Below, in pieces: positions 22,001-32,821 of a stretch of 64,000 nt of DNA. Positions within the stretch are counted from its first letter, which is position 1; every line of letters starts with the position of its first letter. The notes under the pieces are model-generated. The model ran no database searches, was not told where the DNA came from, and was given only the letters and a program-made list of their open reading frames with translations. The stretch is from Saccharibacillus brassicae (GTDB lineage Bacteria; Bacillota; Bacilli; Paenibacillales; Paenibacillaceae), in contig NZ_CP041217.1 of the NCBI RefSeq assembly GCF_006542275.1, forward strand, positions 1 to 64,000, written 5' to 3'. A program made the translations under genes and the position numbers.

Positions 22001-23088
22001 AGGACAGGCGAGCCGATCTTCAGCGAATGCCGGTCGACCGTGACGCGGCCGATCCGCTCTTCGCCAAGCGGCGGGAACGTGATCGCAAGCGAAGCTTCGG
22101 CCATGCCGTAGACGGGAAACATGACGTTCGGCTTCATGCCGTAGTCAGCCATCCGCTCCAGAAACTGCTCGCAGATCCGGATCGAGATCGGCTCCGCCCC
22201 GTTGAAGATCAGCCGCACGGCCGAGAAATCGAACGCGATGCCTTTGGAGCGGCGCAGTCCCATCATGGCGTATTTCAGGCCGAAATTCGGCGAAGCGAGA
22301 ATGGTAGCGCGGTGCTGCGACGCTTTTTCGAGCCAGAGCGCGGGGCGGCGCACGAACAGCGAAGTCGTCATCGTGCACTGCGCCATATTGGCCGCCGCCA
22401 CCGCAAGATGGCAGCCGATCAAGCCCATGTCGTGCGTAAGCGGCATCCACGACACGATCACGTCCGACTCGTTCAGATCGGCGCCGCGCACGATCGCCCG
22501 GATGTTCGTCATCAGGTTGCCGTGCGTCAGGACGACGCCTTTGGGCGTGCCGGTCGACCCGGACGAGAACTGGATAAACGCCGTGTCTTCGACGCTCGCT
22601 TCGCACGGCTCGCCCGCGATCCGGTGAGCCAGCGCATGATCGATATCGAGGAAGCGGTCTTCGCGCAGCGCGGCCAGACCTTCTTTTTGCGCAAAAGCCC
22701 CGAAGCCCGTTTTCACTTTGGAACTGCCGACGACAAACGCGCCTTCCATCAGCCCGAGCACGTTGCCGAGCTTGCGGAACGATTCGTCGTTATGGTCGGC
22801 GGCGATCGGAACAGGCACGATCCCGCCCAGCACGCAGCCCCAGAACAGATGGATAAACTCGAAATTTTCGCTTAGTTGAAAAATGACGGGATCGCCTTTT
22901 TGTACGCCGTTGTCTTGCAGATAGCCGAGCACAAGCCGCGATTTGGCGTACACGTCCCGGTACGAACGAAAGATTTCTTCTTCTTTGCCGAGGATAAAAG
23001 AAATGCCCTGCACCGTTTCTTCCGCCCGGGCTTCCAGCATATGCGACAGCGTGGCAAAGCCCGCCTGTTGATCCGCGATCACCCGCAT
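19030..23088 (-). CDS. FAAL-ACP-ketosynthase loading protein, 1,352 aa
   Basis: Starts the lipopeptide. A fatty acyl-AMP ligase domain (about 1-595; SSGSTGTPKG near 174) should adenylate a fatty acid and load it on the ACP (GVHS, Ser near 621). The beta-ketoacyl synthase (about 688-1110) then extends it once with malonate; its triad is visible as DSACSSS (Cys near 850), EAHGTGT (near 982) and SNIGH (near 1022). No acyltransferase domain follows, so malonate must come from the trans AT at 25,082. The C-terminus (HLPTYPFAQSRCW) looks like a post-KS linker. An imperfect tandem repeat rich in GASGLNGIAGVNG lies near residues 1116-1145. ATG 23088 overlaps the previous TGA by one base (TGATG) behind GGGAG; GTG 23091 is an alternative. 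In MycA/ItuA the same three domains are fused to the aminotransferase and NRPS, so here the protein is split after the KS. Confidence 0.93.
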   Translation of the reverse strand: MRVIADQQAGFATLSHMLEARAEETVQGISFILGKEEEIFRSYRDVYAKSRLVLGYLQDNGVQKGDPVIFQLSENFEFIHLFWGCVLGGIVPVPIAADHNDESFRKLGNVLGLMEGAFVVGSSKVKTGFGAFAQKEGLAALREDRFLDIDHALAHRIAGEPCEASVEDTAFIQFSSGSTGTPKGVVLTHGNLMTNIRAIVRGADLNESDVIVSWMPLTHDMGLIGCHLAVAAANMAQCTMTTSLFVRRPALWLEKASQHRATILASPNFGLKYAMMGLRRSKGIAFDFSAVRLIFNGAEPISIRICEQFLERMADYGMKPNVMFPVYGMAEASLAITFPPLGEERIGRVTVDRHSLKIGSPVLHLPDESEEHAIVYADEGFPVDSCSVRICGERDEELPDGSLGLIQIRGGNVTAGYYGGEAANRDTRTPDGWFRTGDIGFFYQARLVVVGRTQEMVIVNGQNYFSNDLERLAAEIEGVELNKIAVTSVFERDSQTEQTIAFVVHKGEAEQFLPLKKKVREHFARMVGIRMDYIVPVAQIPKTSSGKLRRHELKSRFEQGTFDEIVDRCRLLLREERELAARSGGRERVKQMERTLLELCAEVLPEQEIGIADNFFEQGVHSLALHQLAAALNERLPGAVAPEDLLAYPSINRLAAYLCDDDDGEEEALPQAAASARPGFGSPVAIIGIGLKLPGASGVEEFWSNLCGGMESVGPLPAERRRDLETYLARAGLADGVVKHGGYLHGIDKFDPAFFRILKKEAIAMPPAQRLFMQTAYESLEDAGYGGEALRSSRTGVYVGYISDLGGAQYQDLLKHSRDEQSATGVLSANIGGRFSYFMDFTGPSLLVDSACSSSMSALNLAVQALGAGDCEQAIVGGVQLKVIPLMEKEVGIESADGHTRPFSEDADGTGEGEGVISILIKPYAQALADGDPVYSVIRASHTNQDGHSAGLSAPNPQAQTALIRETLSKAGLESTDIGYVEAHGTGTRVGDPAELKALARAFRMDGDRDAKCALGSVKSNIGHLYAASGLAGIVKSSLMLQRKKIPATVNVGEPTRSFDWDASPFYVNTRLRDWESESVRRCSVSNFGFSGTNCHVVLEEHVEPERLARLETPGMAGWHGASGLNGIAGVNGASGLDGIAEVNGMTPASEMTGEMTGAKNESGGETWPFTLSASSREGLEAYVRAYGEFLRGSGSGFLRLADLCHTSSSGRKHLEYRLALKVSSVEELSEKLDNFHYALRPGEGQYVGYAGKTRGGAAERDRGELEPGETEALGRISANCAAALAHTNVPEERDRLVSRLCDHYVKGAQPDWLPAFEAANARRIHLPTYPFAQSRCWPDFELEPSPTSKTR

Positions 23089-24362
23089 CACGCTCCCGCT
23101 TTCGAATGTTCGGCTATATGTTCGAGCATCGCGCCGTACAAAATGTCCAGGCCGCGGCGCAGATTGTCCGGATCGACCGTCAGCGGAGGCATGATCTTGA
23201 TCACCGAGTCGTTGCGCCCTACCCGCTCCAGAATCAAGCCCCGTTCAAAACATTCGCCGACGATTTTGAGCGACAGATCGGGATCGCCGAGACCCGCCAG
23301 ATCGACGCCCCAGATCATGCCGATGCCGCGAACCGCGATCCGGCTGCCGAATTCGGCTTCGAATCGGCCGAGCGCTTCGCGAATGATCGCTTCCTTCTCC
23401 AGCACGACGCGGTCCATGTCTATCTGCTCGCGCAGCTCAAGCGCGGCGGTCGCCGCGATAAACGCCGTCTGGTTGCCGCGGAACGTGCCGTTATGCTCGC
23501 CCGGGCTCCAAATGTCGTGCTCCGGCTTCATCAGCAGCAGCGACATGGGCAGCCCATAGCCGCTGATCGATTTGGACAGCGTGACCATGTCCGGCGCGAT
23601 ACCCGCCCGCTCGAACGAGAAGAACGTGCCGGTGCGGCCGCAGCCGACCTGGATATCGTCGCAGATCAACAAAATGTCGTGCCGCGCGCACAGATCGGCG
23701 AGCCCGCGCATCCATTCGGGCGTCACCGGCACGATCCCGCCTTCCGCCTGCACCGTCTCGAAGATAACCGCGGCCGGCTTGTCGATGCCCGAATGGTCGT
23801 CGTTGAGCACGTTTTCCATATACTGCAGCGTGTCGAACGTATCCATATAGCCGAACGGATACGGCATAAACGTCACGTGTTCGAGCGGCAGGCCCGCGCC
23901 TTCGCGGCTGCTCCGGTTGCTCGTCGCCGCAAGGCTGCCGAGCGACATCCCGTGAAAGCCGCCCATAAAAGAAAAGACCGACGATCGTTGCTTCACTTTG
24001 CGGGCCAGCTTGAGCGCCGCTTCGACGGCGTTCGTGCCCGTCGTGCCGCAAAATTGCAACTTGTATTCCAGTCCCCGGGGATTGAGGATGCCGCGGACGA
24101 ATTTGTCGATAAAGAGGCGTTTCGTATCCGTGTACATGTCCAGCCCGTGCGTGACGCCGTCCGATTCCAGGTAACGGATCAGGCACTGCTTGATGTATTC
24201 GTCGTTATGTCCGTAATTCAAAGCGCCGGCTCCCGCAAAAAAGTCGATATAAGCTTTGCCGCTTTCGGCATACATGATGTCGTTCTTCGCCGAAACAAAC
24301 ACGTCTTGAAAGCTGCGGCAGTAAGAACGTACGTTGGACTCGTGAGCGTCGAAAATCAACAT
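23088..24362 (-). CDS. Class-III aminotransferase, diaminobutyrate-2-oxoglutarate type (EctB/Dat-like), 424 aa
   Basis: PLP-dependent fold-type I aminotransferase. The N-terminus (ESNVRSYCRSF), GTTGTNAVE near 106, GYMDTFDT near 171, the Asp pair near 235 and the PLP lysine in TLSKSISGYG (Lys264) match the EctB/Dat family, which aminates aspartate semialdehyde with glutamate to give L-2,4-diaminobutyrate. No ectA or ectC lies beside it, so ectoine synthesis is unlikely and supply of diaminobutyrate as a peptide building block is inferred. ATG 24362 has an AGAGGG site and lies 6 bp after the thioesterase stop; the stop codon overlaps the FAAL-KS start. Another class-III substrate cannot be excluded. 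Confidence 0.88.
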   Translation of the reverse strand: MLIFDAHESNVRSYCRSFQDVFVSAKNDIMYAESGKAYIDFFAGAGALNYGHNDEYIKQCLIRYLESDGVTHGLDMYTDTKRLFIDKFVRGILNPRGLEYKLQFCGTTGTNAVEAALKLARKVKQRSSVFSFMGGFHGMSLGSLAATSNRSSREGAGLPLEHVTFMPYPFGYMDTFDTLQYMENVLNDDHSGIDKPAAVIFETVQAEGGIVPVTPEWMRGLADLCARHDILLICDDIQVGCGRTGTFFSFERAGIAPDMVTLSKSISGYGLPMSLLLMKPEHDIWSPGEHNGTFRGNQTAFIAATAALELREQIDMDRVVLEKEAIIREALGRFEAEFGSRIAVRGIGMIWGVDLAGLGDPDLSLKIVGECFERGLILERVGRNDSVIKIMPPLTVDPDNLRRGLDILYGAMLEHIAEHSKAGA

Positions 24363-24368
24363 ATACGG

Positions 24369-25085
24369 TCATCCCTCTCGGTGCGTAGTAGAAACGGGCG
24401 ACGGCTTCAATATCCGGTTGATGGCTTGAACGACGCGGTTTGCGTGTTCGTTAATAAAAAAGTGGCTGCCTGCGAAGGCCTGGTAGGAAGAAGGGGAAAA
24501 GGTATGGCGGTCCCACTCGTTCATGGACGAACGATCATGGTCGGACTCGCTGTTGAACAAGGTGACCGGGCAGGCAAACAGCTTTTCCCGCACCGTTGGG
24601 AGGTAATTTTCGACCGCGCCGAAATCGCTGCGCAGCAGGCGGAACAAAAAGGAAGCGAACTCCGGGTCTTCGGTCAGCTGCCGGGGAATGCCGCCCAGCT
24701 CGAACATGCGCTCCCGGAACTGTTCTTCGGGCAGCAGATGATGCCGTTTCGGCTTGTAGAGATGGGGCGGAACCATGCCGGACAAAATGACGTGCTGCGG
24801 CAGGCGCTGCCCTTCGCGCTTCAGCCGGGCATACGCTTCCGTTACGACGTAGGCGCCCATGCTGTGGCCGAACATTGCGTACGGTTCGCCGCTGTCGTCG
24901 GCCGCGATTTTGCGCGCGACGAAGTCGGCCATTTGGCCGATCGTCGGCAGCAGTTCGTCGCCGGCGCGGCCGCTTCGGCCCGGCAGCTCGATCGGACACA
25001 GTTGGATCGAAGTCTCCAGCTCTTTTTTCCACTTCAGGTATGTAAAAGAAAAACCGCCGGCGTACGGGACCGTGTACAGCTTCAT
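24369..25085 (-). CDS. Type II thioesterase, 238 aa
   Basis: Alpha/beta hydrolase of the GrsT/SrfD type. It removes wrong or stalled acyl groups from carrier domains in trans. The nucleophile motif GHSMG gives Ser75; the acid is probably Asp182 or Asp184 (SESDHD) and the base His208 (AGSHFF). The length is normal for external thioesterases. I place the start at ATG 25085, which overlaps the transacylase stop (ATGA); a longer frame upstream runs antiparallel in sense through the neighbour and is not needed. Translation is probably coupled to the gene before it. Confidence 0.93.
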   Translation of the reverse strand: MKLYTVPYAGGFSFTYLKWKKELETSIQLCPIELPGRSGRAGDELLPTIGQMADFVARKIAADDSGEPYAMFGHSMGAYVVTEAYARLKREGQRLPQHVILSGMVPPHLYKPKRHHLLPEEQFRERMFELGGIPRQLTEDPEFASFLFRLLRSDFGAVENYLPTVREKLFACPVTLFNSESDHDRSSMNEWDRHTFSPSSYQAFAGSHFFINEHANRVVQAINRILKPSPVSTTHREG

Positions 25086-26035
25086 TGCGGCACCGCTTCC
25101 CGAACCGGGAACAGCCCGGCCAGCCGGTCGCGCTCGGCTTGACGTTCGTAGCCGAATGCCCGCGCATCCGGATAAGACGCGCGCAGCATGCGGGTCAGAA
25201 TGCCGCCGCTGCCGAGTTCGACGAACGTATCGACGTTCTGTCTGAGCGCCCGTTCGATCGTTCGATGCCACTGCACAGGCGAGAGCAGCTGCGCGACCAG
25301 ATAGTCCGCGACCGTGTCGGCGGTATAACAGTTCAGGTTAACGTTCGCGATAACGGGATACTTCGGTTCGGACAGCTTCAGCGCACGCAGATGAGCGCCG
25401 AATTCAACCGACGCTTCTTGCAGCAGCGGCGTATGGAACGGCGCGTTGCCGGGCATGCGCTTGACCGACGCTCCCCGCTCCTCGGCTATCCGCTCAAGCA
25501 GGTCCAGATCGGCCCGCACGCCGGCGACGCTGAGCTGGTCGGGCGCGTTGAAGCAGCTGACCCACACGCGCTTTCCCTGCCGGCGCAGTTCGGCGCACCG
25601 TTGTTCGATGACGTTCGCGTCGGTGCGGTAGATGACGCTCATCGCGCCGTCGCAGGCGATCGCCGCTTCGTGCGCCAGTTCCGAACGAAATGTGACGGTC
25701 TTCAGCGCCTGTTCGAACGTCAGCACGCCCGCGCAGGACAGCGCCGCGTATTCGCCGAGGCTGTGGCCCGCCATCAGCGCAGGGCGCTCGGCCCGTTCCG
25801 CGGTAAAATGACGAAAAGAAGCGGTGCAGGCGGTCACGATCAGCGGCGCGCTGATTCTAATGTCCCGCAGCGTGCTCTCGTCGCCGTCAAAACAAAGCCC
25901 GGCAACGTTAAGGTGCAGCAGATCCGAAGCTTCTTCGAACGTTCTTCTTACCTCTTCGCTCTCTCGATGCAGCTCTTGCAGCATACCGATACGCTGGGAA
26001 GATTGCCCCGGAAAAACGAACGCGAATTTGATCAT
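25082..26035 (-). CDS. Trans-acting malonyl-CoA acyltransferase (FenF/ItuD/MycC-like), 317 aa
   Basis: FabD-family transacylase that moves malonyl from CoA to a carrier protein. FVFPGQSSQ lies at the N-terminus, the nucleophile motif GHSLGEY gives Ser92, and NAPFHTPL gives His201. Iturin-family clusters begin with just such a gene (ItuD, MycC), which serves the AT-less ketosynthase; this cluster has the same first gene. An AGGAGG site precedes ATG 26035 with a rather long 12-nt spacer. It is the first gene of the operon that continues past the left window edge. Confidence 0.93.
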   Translation of the reverse strand: MIKFAFVFPGQSSQRIGMLQELHRESEEVRRTFEEASDLLHLNVAGLCFDGDESTLRDIRISAPLIVTACTASFRHFTAERAERPALMAGHSLGEYAALSCAGVLTFEQALKTVTFRSELAHEAAIACDGAMSVIYRTDANVIEQRCAELRRQGKRVWVSCFNAPDQLSVAGVRADLDLLERIAEERGASVKRMPGNAPFHTPLLQEASVEFGAHLRALKLSEPKYPVIANVNLNCYTADTVADYLVAQLLSPVQWHRTIERALRQNVDTFVELGSGGILTRMLRASYPDARAFGYERQAERDRLAGLFPVREAVPQ

Positions 26036-26075
26036 GGCGGTTGCGTTCCTCCTAGATGTAAATTAAAAATGTTAA

Positions 26076-26103
26076 AAAATATGCGAAGTTTTTAATTATG
26101 TAA
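26076..26103 (-). promoter_or_regulatory. Candidate promoter of the lipopeptide operon
   Basis: The divergent intergenic region 26,036-26,269 is unusually AT-rich for this window. On the minus strand TTACAT (26103-26098) and TATTTT (26081-26076) are spaced by 16 bp, about 40 bp before the transacylase start. No other clear -35/-10 pair is seen there. The match to consensus is modest, so a regulator may be needed. Confidence 0.4.
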
Positions 26104-26269
26104 TTCTTCCTTGAAAAAAGGAACTTCATACCTCCCCCATCGTAATGAGGCAGATCCGATTCGTCAACAGATTTCTAAAAACCTACTAGAAAACCTACCT
26201 CTTCCCAATCTTCTCTGCTATGGTTAGAGCATACCTACAGTCGGCAGGCCCGAATAAGGAGAATCCCGA

Positions 26270-26986
26270 ATGAATCCAACCAAAAAAATCGTCATCGTCG
26301 AAGACGAACTGGACATTTCCCGGATCGTCACGAATTATATGGCGAAGCACGGCTACGAAGCGTCCGCGGCGTCCAACGGCGCGGACGGCCTGCGCATGAT
26401 CGAGCTGCTCGACCCCGATTACGTCATCATGGACCTGACACTGCCCGACGCGGACGGTCTGGAACTGTGCCGCCAGATTCGGGAAACCAGAGAAACGCCG
26501 ATTCTGATTCTCAGCGCCCGCGGCAGCGATACCGACAAAGTGCTGGGACTCGGCTTCGGCGCGGACGACTACATGACCAAGCCTTTTTCGCTCAGTGAAC
26601 TGCTGGCGCGCATCAATGCCCATTTCCGCCGTTACGACAAAATGAAACAGGCCGCGGAACCGGTTCGCCTGCCGGAGGAGCCCGACGCGCAGCTGCGGAT
26701 CGGCGAGCTGTCGATCGACAAAAGCGAGCATCGGGTCTCGGCCGGCGGCCGCGAGATCGCGCTGTCCGCCAAAGAATTCGACCTGCTGCTCGTGCTGGCC
26801 GAACACCGGAACCGCGTTTTTTCCAAAAGCGAACTGCTTGACCTCGTCTGGGGCTCCGACCGTTACGTCGACGAGAATACGGTCAGCGTCTACGTGCGGC
26901 GCGTCCGCGAGAAAATCGAAGAAAGCCCGTCCGATCCGCGCTATCTCAAAACGGTGTGGGGCGTAGGCTACAAACTATGCCCCTGA
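26270..26986 (+). CDS. OmpR-family response regulator, 238 aa
   Basis: Receiver domain (1-120) with acidic residues at 11-12, phosphoryl-acceptor Asp55 (VIMDLTLPD) and Lys104 (TKPF), then a winged-helix DNA-binding domain ending in VWGVGYKL. AAGGAGAA precedes ATG 26270. It overlaps the kinase gene by 10 bp, so the two form one unit. The gene is divergent from the lipopeptide operon and upstream of an ABC transporter; control of either is inferred. Candidate binding repeats lie at 28,870-28,896. Confidence 0.93.
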   Translation: MNPTKKIVIVEDELDISRIVTNYMAKHGYEASAASNGADGLRMIELLDPDYVIMDLTLPDADGLELCRQIRETRETPILILSARGSDTDKVLGLGFGADDYMTKPFSLSELLARINAHFRRYDKMKQAAEPVRLPEEPDAQLRIGELSIDKSEHRVSAGGREIALSAKEFDLLLVLAEHRNRVFSKSELLDLVWGSDRYVDENTVSVYVRRVREKIEESPSDPRYLKTVWGVGYKLCP

Positions 26987-28530
26987 ACGTCTGGATTCGC
27001 CGCAAGGCGACGACGCTCTTCGTGCTGCTGCTGCTGATTTTCGGAAGCGGTCTGTGGCTGCTGCTGGCAAGCGGCGTCCAGCATCCCGAAGCCGAACGCT
27101 ACCCGGTCAACCGGGCCCGGCTGGCCGTCAGCGGAATCCTGTTCGAGCTGGAGCGGACCGGTCTGCAAACGCTGCGCAGCGATGCCGCCGCCCGCGCCGG
27201 CCTGCTGGAACGGTGCGAGCGGATCGGCGCCGAATTGACGCTGGTCGACCTGCGCGGCATCATCGCGTTCGATACATATGCGGCGGAATCCGGCGCCGTA
27301 CCGCCGCAAGGCGCGGCTGTCGACCTGCGCAGCGCGCTCAACTACGAGGTGCACGCTTCGGCCGTGCCCGGCCGGCTCGCCGTCGCGTTTCCCGTCGTGG
27401 AGAACGGGGCGCAGACCGGAAGCGCGCTGTTCGACTTCGCGGCGGACGATCTTGCGCCTCCGGCCGAGCCGAACCGGGTCGGGGCGCCGCTGCTTGTCTT
27501 CGGCGCGCTGCTGTGCGCCGCGGCGTGGACCGTGTGGCGCTTCGGCCGCCGCCTGCGCGTGCGGACGGTGGAGCCGCTCGTTTCGCTCAAGCAGGCGGCG
27601 GAACGTATGCTGCGCGGCGAATACGAACAAAAAGCGGAGTATGCGGAGCCCGACGAAATGGGCGACCTGTATGCCGCTTTCGACCAGATGCGCCTGGAGA
27701 TCCTGCATCTGAACCGCGAACGGCTGCGCCGCGAACGCATGCAAAAAGAACTCGTGACCGATATTTCGCACGATCTCAAAACGCCGCTCACGACGCTCAA
27801 AGCTTATATCGAAGTCATCGAAGAAGGGCTGTGCGCCGACATGGACGAAGTGCTTGACTATGTCGGCGTGATGCGCGTCCATACCGACAAAATGGTGCGG
27901 CTGACCGACGACCTGCTCGTGCATGCGCTGAACGAATTGGGGCAGATCTCCATCACGCCGCGGGAAAGCTACAGCCGCGACGTGTTCGGCGAGATTCTGC
28001 GCACGGTCGAGCGCGACGTCACGTCCGCCGGCATCGCTTACCGCGGGCCGGCCGGCCTGAGCGGCGCAGCGGCGGAAGCCGCAGCCGTCCGGCCGGACGC
28101 TGCGCTCCATACGGACCCATCCGGCATCCCGAACGTGCTTATTCGGGCGGACGTCCACCGCCTCGACCAGGTCGTCTCCAATCTGGTCTCCAACGCCCTC
28201 AAGCATACGCGACCGGGCGACGCCATCTCGATCGGATTCGAACGGCTGCCCGGCTTTCTTCAAGTCAGCATCGCCGATACGGGCCAAGGCATCGATCCTG
28301 CCGATATGCCGTTTATTTTCGAGCGGGCTTACAAAGGCGGCGCCGATCCCGGGGACGCCGGCCTTGAGCCCGATGCGGCTTCGCGCGCCGCAGCCGCCAG
28401 GCGCGAAGCCGGAAGCGGCCTCGGCTTGTCGATCTGCAAGACGATCATCGAAGCGCACGGCGGAAGCCTTTCGTTCCAGAGCCGCAAAGGCAGCGGCACC
28501 GTTTTCCATTTTACGGTTCCTCTCTGCTGA
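26977..28530 (+). CDS. Sensor histidine kinase, 517 aa
   Basis: Membrane sensor paired with the preceding regulator. TM1 is about residues 11-32 and TM2 170-188, flanking an extracytoplasmic domain of about 137 residues; HAMP follows, then the H-box DISHDLKTPL (His265) and an HATPase domain with NALKH, DTGQGI and GSGLGLSI. ATG 26977 overlaps the regulator stop by 10 bp and replaces a GTG seven codons earlier. The large sensor domain fits neither the short-loop BceS type nor a known ligand domain that I recognise. Confidence 0.9.
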   Translation: MPLNVWIRRKATTLFVLLLLIFGSGLWLLLASGVQHPEAERYPVNRARLAVSGILFELERTGLQTLRSDAAARAGLLERCERIGAELTLVDLRGIIAFDTYAAESGAVPPQGAAVDLRSALNYEVHASAVPGRLAVAFPVVENGAQTGSALFDFAADDLAPPAEPNRVGAPLLVFGALLCAAAWTVWRFGRRLRVRTVEPLVSLKQAAERMLRGEYEQKAEYAEPDEMGDLYAAFDQMRLEILHLNRERLRRERMQKELVTDISHDLKTPLTTLKAYIEVIEEGLCADMDEVLDYVGVMRVHTDKMVRLTDDLLVHALNELGQISITPRESYSRDVFGEILRTVERDVTSAGIAYRGPAGLSGAAAEAAAVRPDAALHTDPSGIPNVLIRADVHRLDQVVSNLVSNALKHTRPGDAISIGFERLPGFLQVSIADTGQGIDPADMPFIFERAYKGGADPGDAGLEPDAASRAAAARREAGSGLGLSICKTIIEAHGGSLSFQSRKGSGTVFHFTVPLC

Positions 28531-28593
28531 GAGCGGTCCTTCTCTGCGGACTGCGCTCCTGCTTCACGGATTGCCCCTCTTCTTCGCTGAAAA

Positions 28594-28847
28594 GAGCGCC
28601 GACGTTTATCGTCGGCGCTCAACGTGTCGAGAAAGTCTGATTCTGAACAAAGTGAGGAGGCGGAGGGAGAAATTCAGTGTAGGAGCGCCAGCGTTCGCCT
28701 TTGAAATCAGGAAAATCCCATTTAAATTTGATCCTTTTTCCTGATTTCAACACGCGACCGGAACGAATTTCTCCCGCAGTCGACAAGCTTCTCATACGTA
28801 TAGGACTTTCTCGACAGCCTGAGCGCCGACGTTTATCGTCGGCGCTT
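28594..28847. repeat. 254-bp nested palindrome between kinase and ABC operon
   Basis: The stretch is built from inverted repeats with a common centre near 28,722. The outermost units are two copies of one 27-bp hairpin (28594-28620 and 28821-28847, stem GAGCGCCGACG, loop TTTAT). Inside are TGTCGAGAAAGTC (28625-28637) against its complement (28804-28816), GGGAGAAATTC (28665-28675) against 28765-28775, and a perfect 15-bp pair 28701-28715/28736-28750. It carries no ORF that looks real. It could be a MITE-like mobile element or a large RNA hairpin. It occupies most of the 413-bp gap 28,531-28,943. Confidence 0.85.
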
Positions 28848-28850
28848 TTT
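28821..28850 (+). terminator. Intrinsic terminator after the two-component operon
   Basis: Stem AGCGCCGACG with loop TTTAT, followed by five T residues. It is the right-hand copy of the repeated hairpin; the left-hand copy (28594-28620) has no T-tract on the plus strand but is followed by TTTT on the minus strand. Confidence 0.75.
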
Positions 28851-28869
28851 GCGCTGTAAGACTTTATTA

Positions 28870-28909
28870 AGATTTTCGTCAGATTTGCGAAAGATCGGTC
28901 TTGTATAGT
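28870..28909 (+). promoter_or_regulatory. Promoter with three 11-bp-spaced AGAT repeats before the ABC operon
   Basis: A good -10 (TATAGT, 28904-28909) lacks a good -35; the hexamer 17 bp upstream is AGATTT. AGATT, AGATT and AGATC begin at 28870, 28881 and 28892, exactly one helical turn apart, and cover the -35 position. Direct repeats with this spacing are typical sites for OmpR-family regulators, so the regulator encoded at 26,270 is the natural candidate. Confidence 0.55.
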
Positions 28910-28943
28910 GAAAAGTATGGAAGACATACGAGGAGGCCGTACG

Positions 28944-29729
28944 ATGAACAAGCATGCCATTTTGCACGCATCGAATCTGTGCAAGACCTATTCGACGGGA
29001 AGCGAACAGTTCCATGCGATCAAAAACGTGGACCTGGACATTTACGAAGGCGACTTCACGGTCATCATGGGCAATTCGGGCTCGGGCAAGTCGACGCTGC
29101 TCTACCTGCTCAGCGGACTGGACGGGATCACGACCGGCGAAGTCTATTTCCGCAGCCAACGGATCGATACATACAGCGAGAAGCAAATTTCCAATTTCCG
29201 CACGCACAAAATCGGGTATATTTATCAGAGCATCAATCTCGTGCCGGATCTGTCCGTCGTCGAGAACATTTCGCTGCCCGGCTATATCGCCGGCGGCAAA
29301 AAAAGCGACGTGCGGGCCAAAGCCGTCTCGCTGATGCGGGCGATGGATATCGAAGGCCAGAAAGACCGGCTGCCGGCCCAGACGTCGGGCGGACAGCAGC
29401 AGCGGGCGGCGATCGCCCGGGCACTGATCAACGACCCGGAAGTCGTGTTCGCCGACGAACCGACAGGCAGCCTGAACTACGAACACGGCATGGCCGTACT
29501 CGACATTCTGACCGGGATCAACCGCAAAGGCCAGTCGGTCGTCATGGTGACGCACGATATCAAAGCCGCCTGCCGCGCGGACCGGCTCGTCTATATCCAT
29601 GACGGCAAAGTCGCGGGCATTCTCGAATTCGAGAAATACGACGAAAAAACGCTGCCGGGACGCGAGGAAGCCATATTCGCTTTCGTGTCGGGGAAGGAGC
29701 AGCGCCATGTACGCCGTGTGGAAGCTTAG
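28944..29729 (+). CDS. ABC transporter ATP-binding protein (MacB/LolD type), 261 aa
   Basis: ATPase for the FtsX-type permease that follows. Walker [10 protein letters not shown] is near residue 43, the signature is [15 protein letters not shown], Walker B is [12 protein letters not shown] and the switch histidine is in MVTHD. The start is ATG 28944 with AGGAGG 7 nt upstream; an earlier in-frame ATG lacks a site. It overlaps the permease gene by 23 bp. Such pairs beside peptide antibiotic clusters usually give self-resistance or export; that role is inferred. Confidence 0.93.
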
Positions 29730-32115
29730 TCTCGCCAATCTCAAAAAAAGAAAAATCCAGAATTCGCTGATCGCCCTGCTCGTACTGCTGTCCACCCTGC
29801 TGCTGTCGACTTCGGTCATTTTGATCTCGAACACCGACAATCTGTTCACGGGCATGCACGAAAAAACGAACGGTTCCCAGGACATTTTGCGCTTGGACGG
29901 CGGTCTGCACGACCCGGAGAAGGTACATGCTTTCTGGGAAAAAGAACCCGGCGTGTCCGTGTCGAAGCTGCTTCCCTACCATACGCTGTCGGGCGTCTCG
30001 CATAACGGCAGCGACATCCCGAACCTGCTGCTGTTCATGATGGATACGCCACAGCGCCCTCTAGGCGTGGACGAACTGCTGCCCGCGCGCGGCACGCTCG
30101 GCGAGACGCCGGCAGCCGGGCAGGCGTGGATTCCGACCTCGCTCGCGTATTCGCACGATATCGCGGTCGGCGATACGCTCTCGTTCAAGACGAGCCAAGG
30201 AGCGCTGGAGCTGAACGTGTCGGCGGTCGTCGTCGATATTCCTTACGGCGGCCCGTTCTCGACCGAATCGCGCATCTGGATGAACGAAGCCGACTACGGC
30301 GGCCTGTCGGCTTCCGAAGGCGCGAAGTCTTCGTACATGATGGGTATCCGTTACGACAATTACGCCGACCGCCAAGCGCACTGGACGGCGTTCGAGCAGT
30401 TTCTCGGCACGCCGTATCTCGAATCGGTCATGACTTTTGCCGAGATCTCTTCGTTCTACCTGATCCTGAACCAGGTTATCGGCTTCGTCATGATCTTCCT
30501 CGCCGTCGTGATGATGGCGATCGCGCTGTTCACGATCGGCTTCACGATCTCGGATGCGATCCTGACGCAGTACCGGACGATCGGTGTGCTCAAGTCGCTG
30601 GGACTCACTTCCGGCAAAACGATCGGCGTGTATCTGATCCAGTACGCTTTCCTGAGCGCGATCGCGATCGTGCCGGGCTTGATTCTGAGCCGGTTCCTCT
30701 CGCGCATCATCGTCGACAGCACGCTGTCGTACCTCAAGACGGATACAGGTCAGCTTCCGCTGAGCGGTATGAACGCGGCGGCGCTGACCGGCGTGCTGAT
30801 CTTCCTGCTCGTGCTGCTCTGCGTATGGGCTTACGGCAGACGCGCCCGGCACATCGCTCCGGTACAGGCGATCCGCTACGGCATGTCCGAGAGCGACAGC
30901 CGGCGGGAATCCCGCGGCATCGGCGCTTCCGGCAAAAGCCTCGTCGGCTTCGGCAGCCTGCCGGCCGTGCTCGTCGTCGGAGCGCGCAATCTGCTCAAAA
31001 ATATCAAAACGTCCACGCTGATGCTTATTCTCGCCATGGTGACTTCGGCCGTGCTCGTGCTCGGGTACGTCGTGCTGAGCAGCGTCATGAACATTCAGCA
31101 GACGTCCCCGCAGTGGGGGTACGACAATTCCGATATTACCGTGCGGGTATTTGATCCGGCTTCGTTCTCCAAAACGGAATTCGAAGCCGGTCTGGCCGCG
31201 GACGACCGGATCAAAAACGTCTCCTGGCACAGCGGCGTCACCGGCGTGATCGAATCGCCCGAACGCGCAGCTTCGGAGAAGGCCGAGGACACGATGGGCG
31301 TCGTCGTCAGTATCGTCGAAGGCAGCTACGACGATATCGGGTTCGCCGTGCTTGAAGGCGCAAATCCCGTGAACCCGAACGAGACCGCGATCGGCGTGAA
31401 CGTGGCCAAGACGCTAAGCAAAAGTCTCGGCGACACGGTCGAGCTGTACGTGGAAGGCCAGCCGCATGTGCTGACCGTAACCGGTATCTACCAGTCGGTC
31501 GCCAACTCCTCGAACTCGGTCCGGATCAAATCCGAGACGGTTCAAGCGGACAATCCGGCGTTCAGCGCGGCGGACGTCGCCTACATCAACCTGAACGATC
31601 ACTCCCAGGCGGATACGGTCGTGCCGGAACTGAACGAACGGTATGCCGCTTCAATCAGCGCCGCTACGCAAAAGACGCTGCTTGATTCGGTGTTCCGGGA
31701 AGCGGCGACGACGCTTATTCTTCCGATGAGCTTTATGGGCGCCCTGTTTATCACGGTTACGCTGATTATTATCTACAGCATCTGCCTGATCAATATCCGC
31801 AAAGAAATCAAAACGTACGGCATCTACAAATCGATCGGCATGTCTTCGGGACAAATCCGGCGCTCCGTGGCGCTCGGCGTGTCGATCCTGGCGACGGTCG
31901 GCGCGCTCCTCGGCATCCTGCTCGGCGTGTACGCGCTGCCCGTCATTTTGGAAAGCATCCTGGCCGGATACGGCATGGTCGATCTGCCGCTCGTGTTCAA
32001 CGGCGCAAGCGTCGCCCTGATCGCCTGCCTGAGTATTCCGGCCGCGGCTGCGGGATCGTGGCTGTCTTCGGGCATTATCCGAAAAACGTCGCCGCGTATC
32101 CTCGTAGTCGAGTAA
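29707..32115 (+). CDS. ABC transporter permease with two FtsX domains, 802 aa
   Basis: TM1 is about residues 19-41, followed by an extracytoplasmic domain, a three-helix FtsX block near 250-395, a second TM near 455, a second extracytoplasmic domain and a final FtsX block near 670-795. This is the long two-FtsX form found in Gram-positive efflux systems, not the BceB layout with one very large loop. The ATG at 29707 has GGAAGGAG 7 nt upstream. Substrate unknown; the lipopeptide is the obvious candidate from position. Confidence 0.9.
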   Translation: MYAVWKLSLANLKKRKIQNSLIALLVLLSTLLLSTSVILISNTDNLFTGMHEKTNGSQDILRLDGGLHDPEKVHAFWEKEPGVSVSKLLPYHTLSGVSHNGSDIPNLLLFMMDTPQRPLGVDELLPARGTLGETPAAGQAWIPTSLAYSHDIAVGDTLSFKTSQGALELNVSAVVVDIPYGGPFSTESRIWMNEADYGGLSASEGAKSSYMMGIRYDNYADRQAHWTAFEQFLGTPYLESVMTFAEISSFYLILNQVIGFVMIFLAVVMMAIALFTIGFTISDAILTQYRTIGVLKSLGLTSGKTIGVYLIQYAFLSAIAIVPGLILSRFLSRIIVDSTLSYLKTDTGQLPLSGMNAAALTGVLIFLLVLLCVWAYGRRARHIAPVQAIRYGMSESDSRRESRGIGASGKSLVGFGSLPAVLVVGARNLLKNIKTSTLMLILAMVTSAVLVLGYVVLSSVMNIQQTSPQWGYDNSDITVRVFDPASFSKTEFEAGLAADDRIKNVSWHSGVTGVIESPERAASEKAEDTMGVVVSIVEGSYDDIGFAVLEGANPVNPNETAIGVNVAKTLSKSLGDTVELYVEGQPHVLTVTGIYQSVANSSNSVRIKSETVQADNPAFSAADVAYINLNDHSQADTVVPELNERYAASISAATQKTLLDSVFREAATTLILPMSFMGALFITVTLIIIYSICLINIRKEIKTYGIYKSIGMSSGQIRRSVALGVSILATVGALLGILLGVYALPVILESILAGYGMVDLPLVFNGASVALIACLSIPAAAAGSWLSSGIIRKTSPRILVVE

Positions 32116-32134
32116 TCTTGTTGGAGGCACGCAC

Positions 32135-32821
32135 ATGACCGTCATTCATATGGTACGCATACCGGACACCCTCGACGCGCGGCATCTGGCCGCGCTGTCC
32201 GAACGCCTATCGCCGGCCAAGCGGGCGCGTCTGCTGCGATTTCGGCAGCCGGCCGACGCGTACCGGACGCTGTACGCCGACCTGCTCGTCCGCCGCGCGC
32301 TGCTGCGGACGTTCGGGCTGCGCAGCGACGAGATCCGGTTCGAGGACGGCCCGTTCGGCAAGCCGTTCGTCCCGGACCTGCCCACATTCGAATTCAGCTT
32401 GTCGCATGCCGGCGACTGGGCGGTCTGCGCCGTCGACGACCAGCCGATCGGCGTCGACATCGAACGGATGGACCCGATCGAGTTCGAGATCGCCCGCACC
32501 TTTTTCTCCCGTGAAGAATACGACGGATTGATGCGAACCGCTCCGGAACACCGGCTGAACCGCTTCTACGAACTGTGGACGATCAAGGAAAGCTTCATTA
32601 AGATGACCGGCAAAGGACTTCAGACGCCGCTCGATTCGTTCAGCGTGCGCAAGCGCGGGGAAACGTTCGAGCTGCATCAAGCGGACGGCGTTCTCCCCTG
32701 CCGCGTCGCTTCGTATTCGGTCGGAGACGCGTACAAGCTGTCCGCATGCGGTCTTGGCGGCACGCTGCCACCCAAGCCTGTCGCCCTTGACCGAAGCGAG
32801 CTGGAACACGATTTTCTGTAA
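32135..32821 (+). CDS. sfp: Sfp-type 4'-phosphopantetheinyl transferase, 228 aa
   Basis: Attaches the phosphopantetheine arm of CoA to ACP and PCP serines. The diagnostic GVDIE (106-110) and WTIKESFIKMTGKG (148-161) motifs supply the Mg-binding Asp108, Glu110 and Glu152. TTGGAGG lies 7 nt before ATG 32135, and the gene starts 19 bp after the permease stop, so it is in the transporter operon. At least nine carrier-domain serines in the divergent lipopeptide proteins would need it; serving other pathways is also possible. Confidence 0.93.
   Translation: MTVIHMVRIPDTLDARHLAALSERLSPAKRARLLRFRQPADAYRTLYADLLVRRALLRTFGLRSDEIRFEDGPFGKPFVPDLPTFEFSLSHAGDWAVCAVDDQPIGVDIERMDPIEFEIARTFFSREEYDGLMRTAPEHRLNRFYELWTIKESFIKMTGKGLQTPLDSFSVRKRGETFELHQADGVLPCRVASYSVGDAYKLSACGLGGTLPPKPVALDRSELEHDFL

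Follow-up and report, generated by a model that had tools for sequence, protein, structure and literature searches.

The window, by which we mean the whole stretch of 64,000 nucleotides that was analyzed, holds a 254-bp segment (28594-28847) between two co-directional genes, one for a histidine kinase and one for an ABC transporter ATPase. In it, a 202-bp element stands between two copies of one hairpin, the second of which runs into TTTTT (Table 1). The genes from 23088 to 32821 of the window encode an aminotransferase, an acyltransferase, a two-component system, an ABC transporter with an FtsX/MacB-like permease and a phosphopantetheinyl transferase. Such a set of genes hints at a biosynthetic cluster that has a dedicated transporter.

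A previous sequence-only reading had described the segment as a nested palindrome whose ends are two copies of one 27-bp palindrome. The nested palindrome is real: the outer arms are 47 nt long and 85% complementary, the inner stem is perfect over 15 nt, and the strand folds as one long imperfect hairpin. The folding check that had been proposed gave z = -9.6 for RNA and -10.2 for DNA against dinucleotide shuffles, with none of 200 shuffles folding as well in either mode. Both copies of the end palindrome are present and are identical over 26 bp (28594-28619 versus 28821-28846), but the duplicated unit proper (AGCGCCGACGTTTATCGTCGGCGCT) is 25 bp long, not 27. A scan for consensus terminators flagged neither hairpin, presumably because it took the T-tract, paired to the A-tract, for part of the stem; we regard the scan as neutral.

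Table 1 Features of the locus, in coordinates of the window
Feature	Position	Strand	Evidence
Upstream neighbor, histidine kinase gene	26956..28530	+	HATPase_c, HisKA and HAMP domains; its terminator is the target
Target hairpin, left copy (25-bp target-site duplication, foot A...T)	28595..28619	+	Identical to the right copy; other sites are organized alike but with a different hairpin
Mobile element proper (202-bp MITE)	28620..28821	+	13 genome copies at 95-100% identity; boundaries sharp at the hairpins
Left terminal inverted repeat, (T)CAACGTGTCGAGAAA	28620..28634	+	Resembles the ends TCAGAGTGTCGAGAAA / TCAGGCTGTCGAGAAA of the IS1182-family IS of the same genome
Inner structured core, three-way-junction fold	28663..28778	+	Covariance-model match of 84 bits, E 6e-22; covariation; no Rfam match
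Right terminal inverted repeat, TTTCTCGACAGCCTG(A)	28807..28821	+	18-bp match (94%) to the IS end
Target hairpin, right copy, then TTTTT; terminator of the upstream gene	28822..28846	+	Sequence identity with the left copy
Downstream neighbor, ABC transporter ATPase gene	28950..29729	+	ABC_tran domain

The same reading had suggested a MITE-type element that carries or duplicated a terminator, and had proposed to search for further copies and for empty sites. Both searches were positive. The 5.62-Mb genome contains 13 near-identical copies of the element, and more are present in relatives. At all 13 sites a hairpin stands in two copies, one on each side of the element, and the hairpin sequence differs from site to site. 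We extended the comparison to distinct copies with these IS1182-type ends in this and congener genomes (35 copies in eight genomes). Of these, 33 are flanked by a direct repeat of 20-35 bp, and the repeat is in each case a terminator hairpin particular to the site; the other two MITE copies have no duplication. The duplication is centered on the dyad of the hairpin, as the seven outermost symmetric positions pair at a rate of 0.82 in register versus 0.25-0.47 for shifts of 1-6 nt. In most cases it extends one A-T pair beyond the G+C-rich stem, to the boundary of the A-tract or T-tract. The IS1182-ended copies lie between convergent genes more often than between divergent ones (10 versus 3), an excess that is expected of terminators, and in tandem contexts they show no strand bias relative to the genes (7 versus 8). 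Collections of plasmids and phages gave no match to the element.

The empty sites tell how the second hairpin arose. For instance, at the locus of one copy (L005), the relatives G007 and G005 carry a single hairpin and no element, and the alignments of the left and right flanks have exactly 25 and 26 bp in common, respectively, which is the length of one hairpin. Other congeners likewise have one hairpin and no element at this locus. At the locus of the 254-bp segment, G013 has one terminator hairpin after the ortholog of the histidine kinase gene, between orthologous genes, and no element. Because these orthologous, element-free loci hold a single hairpin, the second one was made by the insertion, and the flanking hairpins are target-site duplications that are one hairpin long. 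Being short (202 bp) and non-coding, with terminal inverted repeats, dispersed copies, target-site duplications and empty sites, the element qualifies as a MITE, and it is one that duplicated a terminator. Insertions can also occur in series. In G002, two different MITE variants sit within one terminator (L346, G002:C33:155900-156700) in the order hairpin-element-hairpin-element-hairpin, with three hairpin copies, which indicates that each duplication supplies a new target. At another copy of the genome under study (L348, G000:C1:3936400-3937000), a stray piece of a left end (CAACGTGTCGCGAAATTCGGATTCC) comes after the second hairpin; it is probably what is left of another insertion that hit the duplicated hairpin.

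The same genome also holds a 1.57-kb insertion sequence (IS) of the IS1182 family (NCBIfam NF033551), whose ends TCAGGCTGTCGAGAAAC and TCAGAGTGTCGAGAAAC are like those of the MITE. Its C-terminal open reading frame scores 288 bits against NF033551 (cut-off 270), the N-terminal one matches the same model, and the Pfam domains are DUF772 and DDE_Tnp_1_6; these matches identify an IS1182-type DDE transposase. The two frames overlap, and an A6G slippery site is kept in five homologues, which is consistent with programmed -1 frameshifting rather than decay. When we compared IS copies from this genome, G002, G005 and G018 (L106-L109), the full-length relatives were flanked by duplicated hairpins of 29 bp in G002, 18 bp in G005 and 27 bp in G018. 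The only full IS1182-type IS of the genome under study (L106, G000:C1 about 545.4-547.0 kb) has unlike hairpins at its two ends and no duplication, suggesting, as a guess, that copies later recombined or that one duplicate was lost. For some IS1182 members, long palindromic repeats are listed in ISfinder. The MITE and these ISs share their ends and their target habit, but the IS is autonomous, with its frameshifted two-ORF transposase, and the MITE has only the terminal ~16 bp in common with it. We found nothing in common beyond this repeat, so that the MITE is not a simple internal-deletion derivative of the IS and their partnership rests on the ends and the target habit.

The interior of the element has a distribution of its own. 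The fold of the inner core (~116 bp) also occurs without IS1182 ends, both at other sites of the genome and throughout Paenibacillus, Fontibacillus and Gorillibacterium. In 38 diverse core sequences it forms a three-way junction of 27 pairs, 17 of which show compensatory changes. The covariation score is 0.55, versus 0.15 for shuffled and at most 0.20 for slid controls, and both-side cells number 201 versus 50. In 125 distinct cores the anchored inner stem continues past an invariant UUG/CAA for 12 bp of variable sequence and is equally long, and an isolated pair at the junction switches from A-U to G-C (74 and 50 cases, and one G-U). Neither the element of the window nor core copies from 16 other loci matched any family of Rfam 15 at the gathering score, and a known RNA was rejected on this ground. 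A covariance model found at least 30 core copies in the genome under study and from at least 4 to at least 140 per congener; these are lower bounds, as at most 150 candidates were scored. It found none in the ~294 genomes from other families that belong to a 299-genome sample of the phylum. The core is confined to Paenibacillaceae-type genomes, some of which have more than 100 copies.

Several unrelated types of ends flank the core (IS1182-type, TATAAGTTGAACT-type and AAGTCCGGTGAA-type). The core copies that we collected (28663-28778 in the window, and L014, L015, L017-L019, L060-L079 and L189-L306) form an order-wide repeat family. We saw the ends TATATAAGTTGAACT...AGTTCAACTTATATA at L190, L206, L250, L259, L296, L298 and L306, and the ends AAGTCCGGTGAA...TTCACCGGACTT at L215, L223, L264, L283 and L299. 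At L193, L197, L227 and L230, a different multi-hairpin block (AGCTTTCTGAAAGAAAGCTGCTTCGGAAGCATA-like) takes the place of the 5' hairpin of the core, which looks like a module swap at a junction. One locus (L347, G040:C43:254500-255700) contains three tandem 260-bp units that are 93-95% identical, each with one core and a 37-bp terminator-like hairpin. Cores also occur as inverted pairs ~160-370 bp apart (L339/L341, L340/L343, L342 and L344). G004 and G006 have one such pair at a common locus, as do G005 and G015 for another, so some core copies have been inherited in place.

The core may do more than travel. Copies without IS1182 ends (L189-L338) favor the strand of the neighboring genes in tandem contexts (72 versus 29, based on crude ORF calls), and the bias persists after clustering by neighboring genes (52 versus 24, p = 0.002). 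This bias hints at a role at the RNA level. Template switching can also preserve the pairing of hairpins in DNA. It is possible, if on balance somewhat doubtful, that the core represents a new Paenibacillaceae family of structured RNA with an RNA-level role, repeatedly captured in MITEs with unrelated ends, one of these backbones using the hairpin-duplicating IS1182-type transposase. If this is true, one folded module spreads on several transposon backbones. In any case, the core is a strongly covarying fold absent from Rfam and the most novel and least explained part of the element.

How else could the locus be read? It had also been proposed that the segment is an RNA structure between two operons, in which case it would be static, kept in place, and bounded by two ordinary terminators. 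The strong fold, the position between two co-directional genes and the RNA-like covariation of the core are all in line with this, and for the core the proposal stands in part. As an account of the whole 254 bp, however, it is refuted by the empty sites and the dispersed copies with their locus-specific duplicated hairpins; the orthologous locus of G013 lacks the element, and the IS1182-ended copies have no strand bias. A single copy kept at this locus in all relatives, the outcome named beforehand as favoring a regulatory structure, is not what we observed, and we consider a static structure very improbable. Still less credit is due to the idea that the element carries its own hairpins and that the terminators arrived with it. 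Hairpins do stand on both sides of every intact copy, but they differ from site to site while the element is 95-100% identical, and the empty sites of relatives hold the same single hairpin, which together refute it.

A secondary route deserves slightly more weight, although we judge it improbable. Here insertion beside a hairpin would itself duplicate little or nothing, and recombination or template switching between palindromes would later add the second hairpin. Palindromes invite template switching. The route is also in line with IS1272, of the same family, which makes no duplication (PMC4923244). It would, however, leave many copies with one hairpin, and we observed hairpin-long duplications at 33 of 35 MITE copies and at three full-length IS copies. 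Another candidate is a repeat of the REPIN kind, mobilized by a RAYT (Y1) transposase. On this view the core would open with a GTAG-tagged stem as bacterial REPs do, and the core motif, G(T/G/A)AG(R)AGCG...CGTTCGCC, resembles GTAG-tagged REPs. Y1 transposases (PF01797) had no match in the genome under study and none in the congeners with more than 100 core copies, being present in 1 of 16 congener genomes. The lack of this enzyme in high-copy genomes speaks against such an origin, and neither duplications of 20-35 bp nor IS1182 ends fit it; we rejected it as very improbable.

We therefore consider it very likely that the element is a non-autonomous MITE with IS1182-family ends, moved in trans by an IS1182-type transposase that reads hairpins by their structure, with duplication of the whole hairpin. 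The boundaries of the element, its copy number, the locus-specific duplication of hairpins, the empty sites, and the ends and target habit that match those of the full-length IS are direct observations. From these we infer the remaining steps. The transposase, supplied in trans, would recognize terminator hairpins via structure rather than sequence, probably as a cruciform or else as a hairpin exposed in single strands. The element ends would be joined at the two 5' feet of the hairpin, and repair would fill the resulting gaps, one hairpin long on each side, so that the whole hairpin is duplicated. A working terminator would thus be kept on both sides, the neighboring genes would be spared, and the duplicated hairpin would offer a fresh target. 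This would explain in simple terms how a safe-haven strategy can work: by landing in terminators, an element preserves termination to its left and right and renews its own target.

The closest known systems are IS1272, the best-studied IS1182 member, and TnSha1, both of the IS1182 family and from staphylococci. They share with our element the transposase family and the targeting of hairpins, as they insert into hairpins, many of them terminators, without a primary sequence preference (PMC4923244, PMC5678879). They remove all or part of the hairpin, however, and produce no target duplication (PMC4923244, PMC5678879), whereas here the stem-loop is not replaced but duplicated whole in 33 of 35 copies, over a length that depends on the hairpin. 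This difference is a point against our model, since one family must then use different chemistry, or resolve it in different ways, to delete the hairpin in IS1272 and to duplicate it here. A published model of structure-dependent transposition (PMC5678879, Fig. 13) contains a hypothetical pathway b, given without an example, in which the element is joined to the 5' feet of the stem-loop and the whole stem-loop would be duplicated. The hairpin-length duplications here are what this pathway predicts. For this branch, drawn but so far unseen, with the stem-loop duplicated and not replaced, the element and its sister copies would supply dozens of natural examples together with empty sites and a candidate autonomous partner. 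How hairpins are recognized, and what decides between duplication and deletion, can then be tested directly. In the literature searched, we found no prior report of hairpin duplication by the family, so an IS1182-type element that duplicates the terminator hairpins it targets, and does not remove them, would be a new variation on a known type.

Other comparisons are more distant. Like bacterial MITEs in general (PMC10969869), the element is short, non-coding, fold-back and multicopy and has IS-type ends. It differs from them in that its duplications are hairpin-length and variable, and in that its interior is a conserved structured module also found in elements with other ends. IS elements that target REP sequences (PMC1525189) also insert into palindromic repeats, but theirs is a specific repeat sequence, whereas the targets here are terminators of unrelated sequence.
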